A stretch of 64,000 bases of DNA. It comes from Curvibacter sp. GWA2_63_95. Its GTDB lineage: Bacteria; Pseudomonadota; Gammaproteobacteria; Burkholderiales; Burkholderiaceae_C. This document shows, piece by piece, positions 23,952-56,696 of this stretch (its first letter is position 1; every line of letters begins with the position of its first letter). Where the stretch lies: NCBI GenBank assembly GCA_001795455.1, contig MGPB01000030.1, forward strand, positions 1 through 64,000. The letters are read 5' to 3'. Made by a program: the position numbers and the translations under genes. Below the pieces are notes generated by a model that was given only the letters and a program-made list of their open reading frames with translations, was not told where the DNA came from and did not search any database.

Positions 23952-23957
23952 TTTGTT

Positions 23958-24008
23958 TGCTATTGAATTTATAGCTATTGCCGCATATTCTATAAAGGCT
24001 GGAGGCCA
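23958..24008 (+). repeat. Interspersed repeat family 1, copy A
   Basis: The stretch from GCTATTGAATTTATAGC through GGCTGGAGGCC fills the gap between livF and the Bug receptor gene. It shares its layout with copies at 28625-28674, 44630-44679 and 50313-50361: GCTATT, an A/T-rich spacer, ATAGCTG(C/T)TTGCGC, then GGCC. I recall this repeat as frequent in Comamonadaceae genomes, without having checked. Confidence 0.65.
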
Positions 24009-24015
24009 ATTTCGT

Positions 24016-24996
24016 ATGAAAAACCTGAACCGTCGCACTGTGTCTTTGGGCCTGGCCCTGCTGGCCGGTACCGTGGGCGCACTGCCTGCCTGGGCCGACA
24101 CCTTTCCCAGCAAACCCATCCGCATCGTTGTGCCCTTTGGGGCCGGTGGTGTGGCCGACCTGACCGCGCGCACCGTAGCGCAGAAGATGTCCGAATCGCT
24201 GGGCCAGCCCGTGGTGATTGACAACAAACCTGGCGCTGGCGGTGTGGGCGCAGGTGAGGCCGTGGCCAAGGCCGATCCCGATGGCCACACGCTCTTGCTG
24301 ATGTCCAACGGCACGGCGGTGAGCGCCAGCCTGTTCAAATCCCTGCCGTTTGATGCACAGCGGGACTTCGCCCCGGTCTCCACGATGGGCTACTTTGACC
24401 TGGCTGTGCTGGCCTCGCCCAACGCGCCTTACAAAACCATGGCCGACCTGCTGGCCTACGCCAAGGCCAACCCCGGCAAACTCAATGTGGGAACGGTCAA
24501 TATCGGCAGCACCCAAAACCTGGCGGCCGAACTGCTCAAGACCCGTGCGGGTGTGGATTTCCTCATCGTGCCCTTCAACGGCACACCGGCCGTCACCACC
24601 GCACTGCGCGGTGGCCAGATCGATGTGGCGGTCGAAATTCTGGGCCCCATGATGGGCCAGGTGAACGCCAAGGCCGTGCGCGCGCTGGCTGTGCTGAGCG
24701 ACACCCGTGCCAGCCAGATTCCAGATGTGCCCACGCTGATGCAAAGTGGCGTGAAGGACTTTGATGTGTCGTCCTGGAATGCATTGGCAGCACCGGCCAA
24801 GACCCCCAAGGAGGTGATTGCCCGCCTGAACAAGGAAGTGCAGGCTGCACTGAACCACCCGGACGTGAAGAAAAAACTTTACGAACTGAACGTAGAGGCC
24901 CGTGGCTCCACCCCCGAGAAACTGGCCGAGCTGCTGGCCACCGAGACCAAACGCTGGGCCGAGGTGATCGCCAAGGCCGGCGTACCCAAACTCTAA
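24016..24996 (+). CDS. Bug-family (tripartite tricarboxylate transporter) solute receptor
   Basis: A 326-residue periplasmic binding protein of the Bug/TctC family. The start is ATG 24016. It has a signal peptide (RRTVSLGLALLAGTVGALPAWA, cleaved before DTFP), then FPSKPIRIVVPFGAGGVADL and PVVIDNKPGAGGVGAGEAVA, the family core motifs. No TctA or TctB membrane subunits are in the window, as is typical for the many orphan Bug receptors of Burkholderiales. It lies 65 bases after livF and 11 bases before the dehydrogenase gene. Confidence 0.93.
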   Translation: MKNLNRRTVSLGLALLAGTVGALPAWADTFPSKPIRIVVPFGAGGVADLTARTVAQKMSESLGQPVVIDNKPGAGGVGAGEAVAKADPDGHTLLLMSNGTAVSASLFKSLPFDAQRDFAPVSTMGYFDLAVLASPNAPYKTMADLLAYAKANPGKLNVGTVNIGSTQNLAAELLKTRAGVDFLIVPFNGTPAVTTALRGGQIDVAVEILGPMMGQVNAKAVRALAVLSDTRASQIPDVPTLMQSGVKDFDVSSWNALAAPAKTPKEVIARLNKEVQAALNHPDVKKKLYELNVEARGSTPEKLAELLATETKRWAEVIAKAGVPKL

Positions 24997-27024: not shown

Positions 27025-27621
27025 ATGAAAATTTCACATGTGGTTTTCGGGTTGATCGCGGGCGTCGCATTGACTGCCGCGCAGGCGGCCACAACGGATA
27101 CTCGGCAGTATGGCAATGCAGGTCCAAATACGTACTTTGTGGATGTTGATGCGAATAAGTACTCTGAGCCCTACTACCGCTTTAACTCCGATGGCGATTG
27201 GGGTTGGACACACGGGGCAATCGCTGGGAGCTTCAGCGCGGCCACTCTTAACATCAGTGCGTTTGACGTCGATTTCAGCGATGGTGAAATCGACAAGATT
27301 TGGGCCCTGGATAGCGGCACTTGGACGCTGTTGGGAAGTTTGGCTGGCAATAGTGATGTCTGGGCGTTTTCGACGTTCAATCTGGGCATGAATTTTTTCG
27401 ATGACATTGCAGGCGGTCTTCAGGTCAAGATGGACATCGATTCCAACAACACTGGCTGGGCGGTTACCTTGGCTAAATCCAGTTTGTCGGTGGATGGCGG
27501 GTCTTTGCCTCCCCCTATCCCCAGCGCTGTGCCAGAACCCGAAACCTACGCCATGATGCTCGCAGGTCTCGGGTTGGTCGGTGCCATTGCGCGTCGTCGC
27601 AAGGCCAGCAAATCAATCTGA
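27025..27621 (+). CDS. PEP-CTERM sorting-domain protein
   Basis: A 198-residue exported protein. The signal peptide is residues 1-21 (MKISHVVFGLIAGVALTAAQ). A roughly 145-residue passenger domain rich in Asp, Asn, Gly and aromatic residues follows. The C-terminal tripartite sorting signal has VPEPETYAMM, a hydrophobic helix, then RRRK. Such proteins are processed by an exosortase and handed to the outer surface in EPS-producing Gram-negatives; no exosortase is in this window. The passenger resembles no family I recognise. GC content is visibly below that of its neighbours. AAAGGGG precedes the ATG. Confidence 0.92.
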   Translation: MKISHVVFGLIAGVALTAAQAATTDTRQYGNAGPNTYFVDVDANKYSEPYYRFNSDGDWGWTHGAIAGSFSAATLNISAFDVDFSDGEIDKIWALDSGTWTLLGSLAGNSDVWAFSTFNLGMNFFDDIAGGLQVKMDIDSNNTGWAVTLAKSSLSVDGGSLPPPIPSAVPEPETYAMMLAGLGLVGAIARRRKASKSI

Positions 27622-27701: not shown

Positions 27702-28691
27702 TCAGTCCGCCTTCACCCGCCCGCCGCTGATCACCGGCTTCCAGCGCGCAATCTCGGCGGCAATCAGCTTGCCAAAGTTGGCCGGGGTATCGGGCGTGGC
27801 GATGGCACCTTCTGCATTCAGTCGGTTTTTCAGTTCTGCAGAGCTCAGTGCCTGGTTGATCTGGGTGTTGAGCTTGGCAATCACATCGGCGGGCGTGCCG
27901 GTCGGGGCCACTACGCCATACCATTGGTCGGCCTCAAAGCCGGGGTAGCCGCTCTCGGCCACGGTGGGCAGGTCGGGCAGGGCGTCCATGCGTTTGGGGC
28001 TGGAGACCGCCAGCGCCCGCACCTGCCCGTTTTTGATTTGACTGAGTACCGCCGGTGCCCCCGTGAACAGCAGCTGCGTTTGCCCGCCCACCAGGTCCGT
28101 CACCGCAGGGGCCGTGCCGCGGTAGGGGATGTGCAGCAGCGAGGTGCCGGTCTGCAGTTTGAAGTATTCGGTGGCCAGGTTGGCCGCACTGCCGTTGCCA
28201 CCCGAGCCGTAGTTCATCTGCCCCGGCTTGGCCTTGGCCAGCGCCACCAGTTCTTTCACGGTTTTGGCGGGCACGCTGGGGTGCACCACCAGCACATTGG
28301 GCACACGCGCCACCCAGGCCACGGGGGCAAAACTCTTGATCGGGTCGTAGGGCAGGTTGGGGTAGAGCGAGGGGTTCACCGCCAGCGTGCCGATGTGACC
28401 CATCAGCAGGGTGTAGCCGTCGGCCGGGGCTTTGGCCACCTTGTCGGCCCCAATGGCGCCGGGCACGTTGTCTATTACCACTGGCTGGCCCCAGGCCTCG
28501 GTGAGTTTTTGCCCAATGGCACGCGCCAGGATGTCGGTGGAGCCGCCCGGCGTGAAGGGCACCACCAGGCGGATGGTTTTGCCGGGGTAACCGGCGGCGC
28601 TCTGGGCGCTGGCCGTTTGGGCATAAAAGAGGCCGCTAGCCCCCATGGATATTGCGCAAGCAGCTATCAATTTATGAGTATTTTTGGACAT
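27702..28691 (-). CDS. Bug-family solute receptor beside the protocatechuate locus
   Basis: A 329-residue TctC/Bug-type periplasmic receptor, with a signal peptide ending near QTASAQ and the motifs YPGKTIRLVVPFTPGGSTDI and PVVIDNVPGAIGADKVA. It is transcribed in the same direction as the adjacent LysR gene, 110 bases downstream. The hydrophobic core of the signal peptide (about residues 6-23) is encoded by an interspersed repeat. No membrane partner is nearby. It may bind an aromatic or dicarboxylic acid linked to the lig pathway; this is inference from location. Confidence 0.92.
   Translation of the reverse strand: MSKNTHKLIAACAISMGASGLFYAQTASAQSAAGYPGKTIRLVVPFTPGGSTDILARAIGQKLTEAWGQPVVIDNVPGAIGADKVAKAPADGYTLLMGHIGTLAVNPSLYPNLPYDPIKSFAPVAWVARVPNVLVVHPSVPAKTVKELVALAKAKPGQMNYGSGGNGSAANLATEYFKLQTGTSLLHIPYRGTAPAVTDLVGGQTQLLFTGAPAVLSQIKNGQVRALAVSSPKRMDALPDLPTVAESGYPGFEADQWYGVVAPTGTPADVIAKLNTQINQALSSAELKNRLNAEGAIATPDTPANFGKLIAAEIARWKPVISGGRVKAD
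28625..28674 (-). repeat. Interspersed repeat family 1, copy C (inside a coding region)
   Basis: Read on minus, TTGATAGCTGCTTGCGCAAT through GGCTAGCGGCCTCTTTT matches copy B (44630-44679) along about 45 bases, including the spacing between the GATAGCTG core and the GGCC-T-run end. It covers codons about 6-23 of the Bug receptor and so encodes its signal peptide core. Confidence 0.65.
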
Positions 28692-28801
28692 GGTACGGTC
28701 TCCTGCGGTTATTGGTTTGGCAGGGAGTGTGGGCGGGCGCCGCCCGGATCGGCAAGTTCGCCCCTGCCATAGCAGCTATGCACAAAAGCGCAGGGCCCGC
28801 G

Positions 28802-29719
28802 CTAGCGGTGGATGGCCTTGAGCACCACCTGGCTCACCACGTCCATGGCCTTGCGCTGGGTCTGCGTGGTAGGGCGGCGGGCCGACCACACCAGCATCAG
28901 CTGGCTCATGATGCGCGGGCTGTGGATGGATTGCACGGTGAAGGTGTCGGGGTTGTCGAAGTTGCTCAGCGTGTAGCTGGGTAGCACGGCATGGCCCATG
29001 CCTTCCTTCACCAGGTTCAGGATGGCGTTGAGCCCGTCCACCTCCAGCATCACCTCGGGGCGGCGGCCTATGGCCATCATCTCGCCCTCGATCAGGATAC
29101 GAAAGGCGTTGGGCCGACTGGGCAGGATCAGCGGCAGATCGGCCACGTCCTTGAGGCTGATAGCGGGTGCGGGCTTGGCACGTTTGCCTTTGCCGCTGGA
29201 TTGCGGGTTGTGCGAGATCAGCGACAGCTCGTCCTCGTCCAGCGTGCTCATCTCCAGTTCGGTACTTTGGCCGGGGTTGTAGAGCACGGCCATGTCCAGG
29301 TTGCCCAGGCGCAGGCCTTCGTGCATCTGCACCGAAAAGCCCTCGGTCAGCGTCAGCTGCGCCTGCGGCAACTGCTCGCGAAATGCCAAGACCAGCGGCA
29401 CCGTGATGAGCTTGGACAGGCTAGGCGGCAGGCCGATGGAGACCCGCCCGGCCAGCGCGCCGCGGGCCGCGCCCAGCTCTTCACGCGTGAGCTGCACCTG
29501 GTGCAGAATGCCGCGCCCGTGCTCCAGCAGCAGCTTGCCGGCTTCGGTAGGCACAGCGCCACGGCCATTGCGCGTCAGCAGGTTCTGCCGCAGTTCCACC
29601 TCCAGCAGGCGGATTTGGCGGCTCAGCGCGGGCTGGGCCACGTCCAGCGAGATGGAGGCGCGCGTGAAGCTGCCCATTTCGGCCACGCGGACAAAGTATT
29701 CCAGTTGCTTGAGGTCCAT
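28802..29719 (-). CDS. LysR-family regulator, probable regulator of the protocatechuate 4,5-cleavage operon
   Basis: A 305-residue LysR protein of normal length, with helix-turn-helix at residues 1-60 ([38 protein letters not shown]) and effector domain from about 90 onward. It is divergent from the substrate-binding-like gene and the lig genes, a usual arrangement for LigR/PmdR-type activators. The 124-base divergent region includes a degenerate repeat copy and CTTGGCTTATCAAAG, which could be a LysR site. The effector is probably a pathway intermediate; that is inference. Confidence 0.93.
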
Positions 29720-33489: not shown

Positions 33490-34826
<1,337 letters not shown>

Positions 34827-42391: not shown

Positions 42392-43576
42392 TCAAGCGCT
42401 GCAAGCGTCGCCCAGGCGTGTCCACTTGGCGGTGCCGCGCGAGGACTCCAGCACCTTCTCGATGAAGTGCACACCCCGCGCCCCATCCTCCACACGCGGG
42501 TAGTCCGCCGCCAATGGGTCCATGGCCACACCCTGCAGGCGGGCCCGGATATCGGCGGCCACGCCGAGGTAGACGTTGGCAAAGGCTTCGATAAATCCTT
42601 CCGGGTGGCCTGCGGGCAGGCGCGAGGCGCGTTGGGCGGATTCGCATAGCCCGGCGGATGCGCGCGTGAGCGTGCGTGGTGCGCCTTCCAGCGGCATGTG
42701 CAGCAGCTGGTTGGGGTTCTCCTGGCACCAGAGCAGGCTGCCGGTGGTGCCGCTCACGCGCAGGCGCAGGTCGTTCTCGCTGCCGGTGCAAATTTGCGAG
42801 GCGATCAGCACACCCCGAGCGCCGCCTTGCAGGCGCAGCAGCATATTGCCGTCATCGTCCAGCGTGCGGCCTGCGCCCATGGCGCTGAGGTCGGCGCAGA
42901 GCGACTCAATCTCCAGCCCGGTCACGGTGCTCAGCAGGTTTTCGGCATGCGAACCGATGTCGCCCATGGCGCCCGCGGCGCCGCTCAGCGCCGGGTCCAC
43001 GCGCCAGGCGGCTTGCTTGCTGCCACTGTCCTCCACGGCGGTGGCCAGCCAGCCCTGGTGGTACTCCACCACCACCTTGCGCACCGTGCCGATGGCGCCG
43101 CTTTGCACCATGTGGCGCATCTGGCGCACCAGCGGGTAGCCGGTGTAGTTGTAGGTCACGCCAAACACCGTGCCCTGTTTCTTGACAGCGGCCACCAGCT
43201 CACGCGCCTGTGCGCCGGTGTGCACCAGGGGCTTGTCGCAGACCACGTGAAAGCCGGCTTCCACAAAGGCCTGGGCCACGGGGTAGTGCACATGGTTGGG
43301 GGTGACGATGGAGACGAAGTCGATGCGCTCTTCGGGCGGACGCTTCAGTTCGTCGGCCAGCAATGCCTGCCAGCTTCCGTGGTTGCGGTCCTCGGCCAGG
43401 AACAGGTCGCGGCCCGAGGCCCGCGCCTTGTCCGGGCTGCTGGAGAGGGCACCGGCCACCAGTTCGATCTGGCCGTCCAGCGCGGCGGCTTTGCGGTGTA
43501 CGGCGCCGATGAAGGCGTCGCGGCCACCGCCCACCATGGCGTAGCGCAGGCGGCGTGGGGTGTAGGCAAGGGTCAT
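42392..43576 (-). CDS. Gfo/Idh/MocA family oxidoreductase of a sugar or polyol operon
   Basis: A 394-residue NAD(P)-dependent dehydrogenase. The N-terminal Rossmann segment is [20 protein letters not shown], followed by [20 protein letters not shown] and [13 protein letters not shown]. The C-terminal domain has [15 protein letters not shown]. It overlaps the isomerase gene by ATGA and is the last gene of the ROK-ABC operon. Substrate unknown; inositol-, levoglucosan- or glycoside-type 3-keto chemistry is possible for this family. Confidence 0.92.
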
Positions 43577-44586
43577 GGGGCTTGTTGGTCCTTGGCGAAT
43601 ACGGCGTCAAACGCGCCGGCCGCCGGTTTGAAATCCAGGCGCTTGCAGAAGGCCGCACTCTCGGTGGCGCCATGCACGCGGTCCATGCGGCTGTCTTCCC
43701 ACTCCACGCTCAGTGGGCCGGCGTAGCCGATGTCATTGAGCGCAACGATGATGGATTCGAAATCGATCATGCCGCGGCCCACGCTGCGGAAATCCCAGGT
43801 GCGGCGTGCATCGCCAAAGCTGGTGTGGCCGCCAAAGGTGCCCACGGTGCCGTCGCCCTTGCCCCACCAGGCGTCTTTCATGTGGGCGTTGAAGATGCGC
43901 GGACCGAAGGTGCGGATGAAGCGGATGTAGTCCACCCCCTGGTAGGCCAGGTGGCTGGGGTCGAAGTTGAAGCCAAAGCGGCGGTGCTGGTTGACTGCGG
44001 CCAGCGCACGTTCGCTGGTGGCGATGTCAAACGCGATTTCGGTAGGGTGCACTTCCAGCGCAAAGTTCACGTCGACGGACTCGAACACATCGAGGATGGG
44101 CGTGAAACGCGCACCGAAGTCGGCAAAGCCCGCATCCCAGTAGGCCTGGCTGGTGGGCGGGAAGGCGTAAATGGAATGCCAGATGGAGGAGCCGGTGAAG
44201 CCGGTCACGGTCTTCACGCCAAACTTCTTGGCCGCACGCGCCGTGTCCTGTAGCTCGGCGGCAGCCCGGCGGCGTACGCCTTCGGGGTTGCCATCGCCCC
44301 ACACATGGGCCGGCAGGATGGACTGGTGGCGCTCGTCAATGCGGTCGCACACGGCCTGGCCCACCAGGTGGTTGCCGATGGCCAGGCACTGCAGGCCATG
44401 GCGCGCCAGCAGTTCGCGTTTGTCTTGTACATAGGTGGAGGAGGCCAGTGCCTCCTGCACATTGAAATGGTCGCCCCAGCAGGCGAGCTCCAGGCCGTCG
44501 TAACCCATGCGCTGGGCCAGCGGGGCCAGTTCGGCCAGAGGCAGGTCGGCCCATTGGCCGGTGAACAAGGTGACAGGTCTTGCCAT
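43573..44586 (-). CDS. Sugar phosphate isomerase/epimerase-like (xylose isomerase TIM barrel)
   Basis: A 337-residue AP-endonuclease-2/xylose-isomerase-like barrel. [20 protein letters not shown] and [15 protein letters not shown] open the protein. Metal-site candidates are [31 protein letters not shown] and [12 protein letters not shown]. Partner of the Gfo/Idh enzyme, a pairing common in inositol and keto-sugar pathways. It is separated from the binding-protein gene by 118 bases carrying a repeat. Confidence 0.92.
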
Positions 44587-44629
44587 GGAGACGCTCCAGA
44601 GAAAAAGGGAGAGAGGGCCTGTGGCTGAA

Positions 44630-44679
44630 TGCTATTGTTTTGATAGCTGTTTGCGCATATTCAATGGGCGCCACAGGCC
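44630..44679 (+). repeat. Interspersed repeat family 1, copy B
   Basis: GCTATTGTTTTGATAGCTG through GCGCCACAGGCC, the best-preserved copy. It is flanked by an inverted pair, GGCCTGTGGC (44616-44625) and GCCACAGGCC (44670-44679). The whole fragment can therefore fold into a long hairpin between the binding-protein and isomerase genes. Confidence 0.7.
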
Positions 44680-44704
44680 TTTTTCTTATAAATCTACCGC
44701 CGGC

Positions 44705-45667
44705 TTAGAACGGAGAGTCGGGGAAGTAGAAGTTCTTCGCGGTGTCCTTGGTGATCAGCACCGACGGAATGATGGTGGTCGCAGGCAGCTTGGCGCCCTT
44801 CAGGCGGGCTTCTGCGGTCATCTTCACGGCGTCGTAGATGAACTTGGGCGAGTAGGACACGTTGGCCTGGATGCGTGCATCGCTGCCGTCCATCAGGGTC
44901 TTGATGGAACCCTTGGCACCTGCACCGCCGAACACCAGCTTGATGTCGGTGCGCTTGGCCTGGTCGATGGCCTTGAGCACGCCGACCGACATGTCGTCGT
45001 CCGCTGCCCACACGGCGTCGATCTGCGGGAAGCGGGTCAGGTAGTCCTGCATCACCTTGAAGGCATCGTCGCGGTTCCAGTTGCCGTACTTGGCGTCCAG
45101 CACCTTGATGCCGGGGAAGGCCTTCAGGCCGCCGTTGAAGGCGTCATTGCGTTCGTTGTCCACGTTGGACGCGATGCCGCGCAGCACCACCACATTGCCC
45201 TTGCCACCCAGGGCTTTGCCAATGTAGGCGGCTGGCACTTCACCAAAGGTGGTGTTGTTGGGGGCCACGTAGGCGTCTTGCGCGCTGGTGTCGGTCAGGC
45301 CGCGGTCCACCACGGTCACGTACACGCCCTTGCCCTTGAGCTGGGCCACGGGCTTGGTGAGGGCTGCGGATTCAAACGGCAACACCACCAGGGCGTTGAT
45401 CTTGTTGACGGTCAGCAAGTCCTGCAGCTGGTTGGCCTGTTCGGGCGAACCGCTGGCGGTCTTGACGATCACTTGCAGGCCGGGGTTGGCTTTTTCGAGC
45501 TCGGCCTTGGCCTGGTTGGCCCAGAACACCACACCGGCCATGAAGCTGTGTGTTGCTGCGGGAATGGACACGCCCAGCACGACCTTCTCGGCCGCGAAGC
45601 TGGGTGCGCCGCCCAAAGTGGCCAGGGCCACGGCGGTCAGTGCGAGTCTGCGTGTGATTTTTTTCAT
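44705..45667 (-). CDS. Ribose-type ABC sugar-binding protein
   Basis: A 320-residue periplasmic binding protein (Peripla_BP_4). It has a signal peptide ([20 protein letters not shown], cleaved after FAA), then [20 protein letters not shown] and GRGL-like loop VVDRGLTD. It has two lobes ending [13 protein letters not shown]. Substrate unknown; inositol, ribose or a rare sugar are typical. It follows the permease gene with a 148-base gap containing a family 2 repeat. Confidence 0.93.
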
Positions 45668-49744: not shown

Positions 49745-52700
49745 ATGACCGATCTGTCTGCCGATTTCAAGGCCCTGGCCAACTACCGCCCCACGCACAA
49801 GGTGCGTTTTGTCACCGCGGCCAGCCTGTTTGACGGGCATGACGCGGCCATCAACATCATGCGGCGCATCCTGCAAGGCATGGGTGCCGAGGTCATCCAC
49901 CTGGGGCACAACCGCAGCGTGGACGAGGTGGTGACCGCTGCGCTGCAGGAGGATGTGCAGGGCATTGCCATCAGCTCTTACCAGGGCGGCCATGTGGAGT
50001 ATTTCAAGTACATGGTGGACCTGCTCAAGGCACGGGGTGGGGCGCACATCCAGGTGTTTGGGGGCGGTGGCGGTGTCATCGTGCCGGCCGAAATTCGCGA
50101 GCTGCATGCCTATGGTGTGGCCCGTATCTACAGCCCCGAAGACGGCCAACGCATGGGTCTGCAGGGGATGATTGGCGAGATGGTGATGCGCTGCGACAAG
50201 GACATCAGCGCGCTGGCACCCACCGACCTCTCCGCCATCCAAGGCCATACCGAGGCCAGCTGGCGCGCACTGTCCCAGTTGCTCACCGCGATTGAAGCTT
50301 CCAAGGTCAATCAGGCCCTGGCCCAGGAAGTACGTGCGCAAGCAGCTACTAAAAAGATAGCGGTAGTGGGCATCACCGGCACCGGTGGCGCCGGCAAGTC
50401 CAGCCTGACTGACGAGCTGATCCGCCGCCTGCGGCTGGACCAGAACGACAACCTGCGGGTGGCGGTGATCTCCATCGACCCCAGCCGCCGCAAGAGCGGT
50501 GGTGCGCTCTTGGGCGACCGCATCCGCATGAATGCCATTTCGCCATGGCAGCAAGGTTCCCGTGTCTTTATGCGCAGCTTGGCTACGCGGGATTTCGGTT
50601 CCGAGATCAGCGCCGCGCTGCCCGACGTGATTGCCGCGTGCAAGGTGGCTGGCTTCGACCTGATCGTTGTCGAGACTTCCGGCATTGGCCAGGGCGATGC
50701 GGCTATCGTGCCGCATGTGGATGTGCCACTGTATGTCATGACGCCCGAGTTTGGTGCCGCCAGCCAGCTCGAAAAAATCGACATGCTGGACTTTGCGGAG
50801 TTCGTGGCCATCAACAAGTTCGACCGCAAGGGTGCCAGCGATGCCTTGCGCGATGTGTCCAAGCAGGTGCAGCGCAACAAGGAGGCCTGGACCACGCCCG
50901 CCGACCAGATGCCGGTGTTCGGCACCATGGCTGCGCGGTTCAACGACGATGGTGTGACTGCGCTCTACCAGGCGCTGCTGCCGCGTCTGCAGGCCCTGGG
51001 CGTGCCGCTGAAGGACGGCATGCTGCCCAGGGTGGCGGTACGCCACAGCAGCAACCAGACGCCGGTGGTGCCGGCCGCACGCACGCGCTATCTGGCCGAG
51101 ATCAGCGATACCGTGCGCGGCTACAAGAAGCGGGCGCGCGCGCAGGCCAAGCTGGCCCGCGAGATCCAACAGCTGCGCGAAAGTGGGCGCATGCTGCAGG
51201 AAGCCAACCCGGACAAAGACCGTGCGGTCGCGGCCTTGCATGACCTGGCGACGCAGCGCGAAGCGCTGGTGGGGGCGGCAGAACGCAAGCTGCTGGCCCA
51301 GTGGCCCGAGATGCAGAAGGCCTATGCGGGCGACGAATACGTCGTCAAGATTCGCGACAAGGAAATTCGCACCGCACTCACCACCAAGAGCCTCTCCGGC
51401 ACCACCATCCGCAAGGTGGCCCTGCCGCAGTACGAGGACCAGGGAGAGGTATTGCAGTGGCTGATGCTGGACAACGTGCCCGGCAGCTACCCCTACACGG
51501 CGGGTACCTTTGCCTTCAAGCGCGAGGGCGAAGACCCCACGCGTATGTTCGCGGGCGAAGGGGATGCCTTCCGCACCAACACGCGTTTCAAGCTGCTCTC
51601 CAGTGGCATGGCGGCCAAGCGCCTCTCCACGGCGTTTGACTCGGTCACGCTCTACGGCAACGACCCGGATCCGCGGCCTGATATCTATGGCAAGGTGGGC
51701 AACAGCGGTGTGAGCATCGCCACGCTGGACGACATGAAGGTGCTGTACGGCGGGTTCGATTTGTGCAGCCCGTCCACCAGCGTGTCCATGACCATCAACG
51801 GCCCGGCGCCATCCATACTGGCCATGTTCATGAACACGGCCTTCGACCAGAACATCGAGAAGTTCCAGGCCGACAACGGCCGCGAACCCACCGACACCGA
51901 GGTCGCCAAGATCCGCGAATGGGTGCTGGCCAATGTGCGCGGCACGGTGCAAGCCGACATCCTGAAAGAGGACCAGGGCCAGAACACCTGCATCTTCAGC
52001 ACCGAGTTTTCATTGAAGGTGATGGGCGACATTGCCGAGTACTTTGTGCACCACGATGTGCGCAACTTCTACAGCGTGTCCATCAGCGGCTACCACATTG
52101 CCGAGGCCGGCGCCAACCCGATCAGCCAGCTGGCGTTCACGCTCTCCAACGGCTTCACGTTTGTGGAGGCGTACTTGGCGCGCGGCATGCACATCGACGA
52201 CTTTGCGCCCAATCTGTCCTTCTTCTTCAGCAACGGCATGGACCCCGAGTACACCGTGATGGGCCGCGTGGCGCGCCGCATCTGGGCCGTGGCGATGAAA
52301 GAGAAATACGGCGCTAATGAGCGCAGCCAGAAGCTCAAGTACCACATCCAGACCAGTGGCCGCAGCCTGCATGCGCAGGAGATCCAGTTCAACGACATCC
52401 GCACCACGCTGCAGGCCTTGATTGCGATCTACGACAACTGCAACAGCCTGCACACCAACGCGTTCGACGAGGCCATCACCACGCCCACTGAAGACAGCGT
52501 GCGCCGCGCCATGGCCATCCAGCTCATCATCAACCGCGAGTGGGGCCTGGCCAAAAACGAGAACCCGAGCCAGGGCGCCTTCATCATCGAAGAGCTGACC
52601 GAGCTGGTGGAGGAGGCGGTACTCAAAGAGTTTGAAAGTATTGCCGAGCGCGGCGGCGTGCTGGGTGCCATGGAGACCGGCTACCAGCGCGGCAAGATTC

Positions 52701-53038
52701 AGGACGAGTCCATGCACTACGAGATGCTCAAGCACACTGGCGAGCTGCCCATCATTGGCGTCAACACCTTCCGCAACCCGCATGGCGACCAGGTACTGGA
52801 GAAGCTGGAGCTGGCGCGCAGCACGGATGAGGAAAAGCAAAACCAGCTCACGCGCCTGGCCGACTTCCACACCCGCCATGCCGACGCCGCCCCGGCCATG
52901 CTCAAGAAGCTGCAGCAGGCGGTGATCGACAACCAGAACGTCTTCAACGTGCTGATGGATGCGGTGAGGGTGTGCTCCCTGGGCCAGATCACCAGCGCGC
53001 TGTTTGAGGTGGGCGGGCAGTACCGGCGCAATATGTAA
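49745..53038 (+). CDS. icmF: Fused isobutyryl-CoA mutase IcmF
   Basis: A 1097-residue adenosylcobalamin mutase interconverting isobutyryl-CoA and n-butyryl-CoA. It has an N-terminal B12-binding domain ([11 protein letters not shown], Co-ligand His32). A MeaB-like GTPase chaperone follows (P-loop [12 protein letters not shown] near residue 209; INKFDRKG). The large catalytic domain starts at about residue 530 ([15 protein letters not shown]). The B12-G-mutase order separates it from methylmalonyl-CoA mutase. ATG 49745 is chosen; an upstream frame start at 49673 would include the palindrome. A family 1 repeat spans the B12-GTPase linker. The inferred role is valine or short-chain branched acid metabolism. 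Confidence 0.93.
50313..50361 (-). repeat. Interspersed repeat family 1, copy E (inside icmF)
   Basis: Read on minus, GCTATCTTTTTAGTAGCTGC TTGCGC then CTGGGCCAGGGCC. GCGCAAGCAGCTA on + is identical to 13 bases of copy C. It encodes IcmF residues about 190-206 in the linker before the GTPase P-loop. Because a functional linker is also expected there, descent from the repeat is tentative. Confidence 0.45.
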
Positions 53039-56324: not shown

Positions 56325-56394
56325 TTTTTTTTACACCCACTCCCCCAGCCCCTCGCCCCGTCGGCGAGGGGAGCTTTTAACAGCCGATTTGGTT
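56325..56394 (+). repeat. Left arm of a long inverted repeat, with terminator hairpin
   Basis: About 65 bases nearly identical to the reverse complement of 56628-56696. Inside is CCCCTCGCC, loop CCGTC, GGCGAGGGG (56349-56371), then AGCTTTT, a terminator for the GGDEF-EAL gene. Two or three mismatches separate the arms. It resembles GC-palindromic interspersed elements. Confidence 0.75.
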
Positions 56395-56627: not shown

Positions 56628-56696
56628 ACAAAATCTGGCTGTTGAAAGCTCCCCTCGCCGACGGGGCGAGGGGCTGGGGGAGTGGGTGTCAAAAAA
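56628..56696 (-). repeat. Right arm of the long inverted repeat
   Basis: The mirror copy of 56325-56394. On minus it provides the same CCCCTCGCC-GGCGAGGGG stem followed by AGCTTTC, placed to terminate the convergent hydrolase gene. The interior between the arms is non-coding. Confidence 0.75.

Follow-up and report, generated by a model that had tools for sequence, protein, structure and literature searches.

A short interspersed repeat as the probable origin of the signal peptides of a Bug-type receptor and about ten other envelope proteins of Curvibacter sp. GWA2_63_95

The DNA analysed here, called the window throughout, is a stretch of 64,000 nucleotides from Curvibacter sp. GWA2_63_95 (assembly GCA_001795455.1, contig MGPB01000030.1, positions 1-64,000, forward strand), and it contains the gene of a TctC/Bug-type periplasmic substrate-binding receptor whose 5' end is covered by a copy of an interspersed repeat of about 66 bp. 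It is very probable that this copy became the signal peptide of the receptor and that some ten further envelope genes of the genome acquired theirs in the same way. The origin of these signal-peptide segments from the repeat is well supported by sequence comparison; the segments share one reading frame and mostly lack Arg, and congeners that are poor in the repeat have different signal peptides.

The receptor gene (27702-28691, minus strand) is an ATG-initiated open reading frame (ORF) encoding 329 amino acids, and the protein belongs to the TctC family (Pfam PF03401, E 5.4e-71). The repeat copy lies at 28616-28682 on the same strand and was recovered both by nhmmer (E 2.8e-17 in the window) and by a covariance model (CM; E 2.2e-11), and when the window was reversed there was no match to the repeat profile at E <= 10. 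The putative Sec signal peptide, MSKNTHKLIAACAISMGASGLFYAQTASA, occupies 28605-28691 (minus strand) with cleavage probably after Ala29, as judged from an AxA motif, and most of it is covered by the repeat copy, which is read in the sense frame that is stop-free in the repeat consensus. The initial annotation had placed a repeat copy in the signal-peptide region of this gene, and these two matches together with 289 matches in the genome confirm it. Its codon range of about 6-23 was too small, as the profile match spans codons 4-26.

In the genome of 3.88 Mb (40 contigs) the pattern GATAGCTGCTNNCGC-N11-GGGCTAG matches 289 times at 3 or fewer mismatches and its backward control once, and the CM search, in which 150 of 2075 first-look candidates were scored, gave at least 150 matches, the weakest of those listed having an E of 7.4e-8. 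The consensus derived from 55 gapless copies of the genome is about AATTGCTATTAATTTGATAGCTGCTTGCGCAATATCCACGGGGGCTAGAGGCCTATTTGACTCAAAAAC and is conserved roughly from -14 to +53 around the GATAGC core. Two of the three sense frames of the consensus contain TAG; phase 1 is stop-free and reads IAACAISTGARGLF, that is, (K)LIAACAISTGARG(Q/L)F, in which LIAACAxSTG forms a hydrophobic core and GARG comes close to an AxA site. Judged by this translation, the repeat frame is a few codon changes away from a Sec signal peptide.

The receptor is not a single case. The flanks of 201 copies were examined with genes called by a home-made gene caller; these were 150 CM copies, 41 pattern copies and 10 of 21 extras that had been found by querying with the receptor segment, either as DNA or as peptide, the remaining 11 being dropped as they had no locus. 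In 15 of the 201 the copy coincides with an N-terminus and its frame, sense phase 1, is open. Three of these 15 (L028, L020 and L005) were set aside since the start was downstream or uncertain. Eleven of the 201 copies encode the N-terminal part of a protein in which its signal peptide would lie, all in one reading frame. The ten other genes encode a second TctC receptor (L297), GspD (L013), MltB (L054), phospholipase A1 (L253), HupE/UreJ (L090), LolA (L289), a cupredoxin (L065), an SLT transglycosylase (L087), an ABC auxiliary lipoprotein in which the repeat gives mainly the n-region (L206), and a protein without a family name (L033; no Pfam family, sub-threshold STM0539). Pfam families were thus found for 10 of the 11 proteins, and these are families of envelope proteins. 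An in-frame ATG lies inside the repeat (GCTATG) in L013, L087 and L206, although in GspD translation may begin at an ATG further upstream. Judged by eye, signal peptides of the repeat type are of ordinary length, as if the repeat had replaced the old core and had not been added to it. Since the families are mostly unrelated, the envelope-gene cases are, on their family assignments, probably the outcome of separate events. Recruitment of the repeat as an export signal, raised as a possibility in the initial annotation, stands well supported as to evolutionary origin, and we infer that the repeat-derived peptides direct export.

The repeat is unevenly distributed among relatives. When 150 genomes of the order were searched, that of Curvibacter sp. 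GWA2_63_95 included, many copies were found only in its own genome (288) and in one genome of the same family (43); two further genomes had one match each, a level that the backward control also reaches in other genomes, and two members of the same family, G049 and G133, had no copy by pattern. Within the genus, copies per genome range from 0 to 349. The Bug receptor was compared in the best 80 of 411 relatives, at named orthologue loci, where the repeat was sought in the loci and their flanks. At the signal peptide 12 of the 80 scored above 20 bits and 3 were weak (L106, L108 and L132), and the remaining 65 had no match, so that Bug orthologues without the repeat, which the initial annotation had proposed to look for, are indeed found. 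In a tree of the mature domain, 10 of the 13 repeat-bearing Bug rows, the gene of the window among them, fall in one clade (100/93); L100, L101 and L131 are outside it, which points to further gains, or losses. For LolA, 61 genomes were searched and 55 gave a match; in the loci of the best 30 of these, the signal peptide carries the repeat in 15 of 15 loci from genomes with at least 16 copies and in 0 of 15 from genomes with 6 or fewer. In G174 and G179, which also bear the repeat, LolA itself had no match. For GspD (best 30 of 52 genomes) the signal peptide carries the repeat in 14 of 15 repeat-bearing genomes compared to 0 of 15 that are repeat-poor. In both LolA and GspD the repeat-poor congeners have different signal peptides.

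It is conceivable that Leu/Ala/Ile-rich signal peptides resemble the repeat translation by chance, and in fact the LolA peptides of some repeat-free congeners look similar (SIALIAACLSF in G166), but there the codons differ. Scaled to 3.88 Mb, every one of the 11 copies has E <= 5.2e-9 against the repeat profile, and when L013 and L054, which are among the 53 rows of the profile, were both left out, all 11 still scored E <= 5.7e-9. In a codon simulation of 2000 runs, amino acids were kept fixed, codons were drawn from the usage of the genome, and the commonest base of the CM copies outside signal peptides served as the reference. Third codon positions agreed with the repeat in 144 of 182 cases whereas 36.2 were expected and the maximum of the simulation was 51, and even the lowest single copy agreed at 11 of 17 third positions compared to about 3 expected. 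This agreement speaks against convergence at the protein level. Likewise, nine repeat-free congeners (150 first-look candidates scored per genome) gave 4 CM matches at E <= 10, the best of which was 0.05. Chance resemblance is therefore extremely improbable. A further genome, G214, which had been chosen as repeat-free because it had no strict-pattern match, gave 47 CM matches at E <= 10 with a best of 2.9e-7, and thus diverged copies or subfamilies of the repeat exist.

The signal-peptide copies differ from the other CM copies at two codons. At codon +10, where the repeat has CGC or TGC, Arg or Lys is found in 0 of 11 signal-peptide copies compared to 64 of 145 others (p 0.003), and at codon +31 (AGA) in 1 of 11, the lipoprotein, compared to 122 of 145 (p 5e-7). 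In several signal-peptide copies GARG has turned into GASG, GAMA, GATA or GASA, that is, towards an AxA site; the LolA copy ends ARAGG. This lack of Arg, together with the open frame in orthologues, points to translation of the copies and bears on a reading in which they lie in 5' untranslated DNA, the ORFs only run through them, and the true starts are downstream. The home-made gene caller did set the start of the receptor at 28646, inside the repeat, and the repeat often adjoins gene ends and starts. With a downstream start, however, the proteins, which belong to exported families, would have no signal peptide, and in the receptor AGGAG lies 8 bases upstream of the ATG at 28691, so that we consider untranslated copies very unlikely. 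The copies could also be neutral, selfish in-frame insertions like the Rickettsia palindromic elements (RPE), with the original signal peptide still at work, and the 16 internal in-frame calls among the 150 CM copies and an N-terminal copy in a protein described below are what such insertions would look like. Against this, in the rows inspected by eye the repeat segment is the hydrophobic stretch before the mature domain, although L206 has a further hydrophobic stretch after it, and Arg codons are mostly lacking in the signal-peptide copies; neutral insertion is accordingly very unlikely. A stop-free and hydrophobic sense frame in the repeat is also what would be seen if the repeat family descended from a signal-peptide gene, but the LolA and GspD signal peptides of repeat-free congeners are different ones, and codon +31 is mostly Arg or Lys in the copies elsewhere, which makes this reverse direction highly improbable.

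There are several points that weigh against a repeat origin of export signals, or limit how far it can be carried. The cupredoxin, the SLT transglycosylase and L033 were found via the receptor's own segment (the first two with it as peptide query and the last as DNA query), which is a biased addition, and without them there are 8 envelope proteins versus 1 other protein with the same repeat frame at its N-terminus. This one is no envelope protein; the copy at L295 extends, in the same frame, a protein with a GTPase and a KH domain which we take from these domains to be Era. The codon simulation is not a blind test because all 11 copies were found by similarity to the repeat. Of the 15 LolA matches 13 are at E <= 2e-6 and two are weak (E 0.0018 and 0.019), two of the GspD matches are also weak (E 4.6e-4 and 0.03), and GspD of G162, a genome with 34 copies, has no repeat match. 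The LolA tree needs 3 changes and the congeners are related, and therefore 15 of 15 versus 0 of 15 amounts to few events. In G093, the genome with 43 copies from another genus of the family, a search for the consensus-like peptide gave 4 weak matches, each with a stop. Finally, Arg is kept in the core of some repeat-type Bug orthologues, L095 and L131. As a separate observation, the Era-like extension (L295:1484-2536, plus strand) has polar substitutions (IAAGADSTGAGGQKD) and no hydrophobic core.

From the data taken together we infer a mechanism of insertion and an order of events for the repeat origin. In the ancestor of a Rhodoferax-like group the repeat would have come to cover the 5' end of the receptor gene, by insertion or by copying, most likely moving as an element like the repetitive extragenic palindromes (REP) or like miniature inverted-repeat transposable elements. 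Copies that came to lie at 5' ends in the open frame would have supplied a hydrophobic stretch, from which the Arg codons would then have been lost, the TGC form being present instead of CGC and AGA changing to Ser, Met, Thr, Ala or Gly, and point changes that sharpened the cleavage site would have given a working signal peptide. The old signal peptide would have been lost with the repeat-derived one in its place, and about ten other envelope genes, lolA and gspD included, would have followed the same course. A broader reading, which we favour with some reserve, is that the repeat is a portable export-signal cassette whose spread gave new signal peptides about eleven times in one genome, including those of the lipoprotein carrier LolA and the secretin GspD, and that signal-peptide turnover in this group is repeat-driven. 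It is proposed because the open sense frame is a near-ready signal peptide with a core, a near AxA site and, in some copies, the in-frame ATG of GCTATG. The data suggest that bacterial export signals can be made repeatedly from spare repeat DNA.

A precedent is the Yersinia protein YPO1552, in which, as described in the passage on the RU-2/YPAL repeat, this repeat forms residues 1-30 of a protein whose predicted signal peptide is 1-41, while related proteins elsewhere have signal peptides unrelated to RU-2, and YPO2495 is given there as a second such prediction (Delihas 2007, PMC2759123). What that passage, which centres on one putative exported protein, already makes known is a single Yersinia case of a predicted signal peptide that comes in part from RU-2. 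The repeat studied here shares with RU-2/YPAL, as described there, that it is a small interspersed repeat with one frame open that lies in a predicted signal peptide, and the present cases are of the YPO1552 type in their repeat origin and in being proteins of exported families. They differ in the repeat itself and in the bacterial class, and here about eleven genes are concerned, well-known envelope genes included, and tests were made on codons and between congeners. Within the reach of the searches, the recurrence in one genome, the well-known host genes and the congener comparison are new; among the top-ranked open-licence papers, judged by title and the start of the abstract, none was found that deals with this repeat or with several genes taking their signal peptides from it. 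The birth and turnover of signal peptides can rarely be observed. In the present case the DNA from which they came is known, the numerous copies that were not recruited can be used for reference, and the same genes can be paired between congeners that have the repeat and congeners that lack it. An old idea has it that signal peptides can arise from many hydrophobic stretches; this can thereby be tested in natural genomes, and the results suggest that extragenic repeats can be raw material for well-conserved proteins.

The repeat has likenesses to other families as far as their descriptions go. The RPE are 105-146 bp with inverted repeats, are regarded as neutral or slightly detrimental, and likewise lie in frame within unrelated conserved protein genes (PMC2229807); the present repeat is set apart from that description by its length of about 66 bp, the lack of a strong palindrome and its probable use as an export signal. 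The BRE repeat is also betaproteobacterial and has some copies in coding sequence; it is about 90 bp, has 69% GC in Bordetella, is often tandem, reaches at most 29 copies per genome and is reported in Rhodoferax and Polaromonas (PMC3110155), and it differs in length, GC and copy number, a distinction made by description and not by sequence. With the REP/RAYT systems the repeat has in common hundreds of copies that lie beside gene stops and sometimes in genes (PMC3733652, PMC12306157), GTAG REPs also being described within genes (PMC3733652). It resembles REPs in its high copy number within one genome (the 289 pattern matches) and in being mostly extragenic and near gene 3' ends, but it is not a short stem-loop palindrome of 20-40 nt; the consensus folds no better than shuffles (z -0.27) and RNAalifold on 52 copies gave 6 pairs with 0 compensatory changes. 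A covariation of GCTAT/ATAGC to CTCC/GGAG that was apparent by eye was rejected since the two sides vary independently across aligned copies. A structured RNA was also rejected; in 28400-28900 there was no Rfam match above the gathering score and one sub-threshold match (E 0.29) that lies outside the repeat.

As to location, 114 of the 150 CM copies overlap no called gene, and called gene stops cluster at the repeat edges; relative to the core start, 53 stops on the sense strand fall within -40 to -1, and 80 on the antisense strand within +20 to +79. The genome has one match to Y1_Tnp (RAYT-like; L379:1462-2160, plus strand), and a repeat copy abuts its stop codon, on the 3' side only; this is weak evidence for a mobiliser because copies usually sit at gene 3' ends. 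Near the 150 CM copies 14 sense genes start at +40 to +59, and several of them use an ATG formed in the repeat 3' end (TTTGACATGAAA, TTTCATGCAT). The 16 internal copies lie in frame inside called genes, which are putative host genes, and the count was restricted to CM copies because poor pattern matches can be chance in coding sequence, as with L273, which presumably resembles the RmlD family's own motif. They include L188, L203, L073, L211 and L239, may be RPE-like coding insertions, and some of the host genes we take by eye to be PurL, tRNA nucleotidyltransferase and ProA.

In the window, a copy at 44628-44692 (plus strand, nhmmer E 3e-11) lies between the called genes 43573-44586 and 44705-45667 and is taken as the intergenic copy B of the initial annotation. 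The stated identity of about 45 bases with the receptor copy was not found; the alignment has 46 columns, of which 37 match, and two gaps of one base each, so that the two are similar only. That the repeat lies elsewhere in non-coding gaps is true of this copy, but the others overlap an ATG or sit in ORFs. One at 23956-24022 (plus strand, nhmmer E 7.7e-8) lies just upstream of a gene called from 24016 and reaches across its ATG, a weaker one at 50306-50364 (minus strand, nhmmer E 3.7e-8) is antisense inside the called long ORF 49745-53038 (plus strand), and a weak partial match that falls within a called ORF, at 34714-34755 (plus strand, nhmmer E 3.1e-4), may have arisen by chance. The receptor copy (at positions 28600-28624 of the window), L033 and the copy C38:6588 (L036/L063) share TTTTATGCCCAA beyond the general consensus, which may reflect a subfamily or copying between signal-peptide copies. 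C38:6588 reads ...FYAQTASA like the receptor and was not counted because its open frame ends seven residues later. Beside the receptor gene, 27025-27621 (plus strand) encodes a small secreted-looking protein with a C-terminal VPEPETYAMMLAGLGLVGAIARRRK, an ending that we presume to be like the PEP-CTERM sorting signal. The window also contains a 60-nt inverted repeat (56326-56385 and 56637-56696) with 97% complementarity and arms 251 nt apart, possibly another repeat family.
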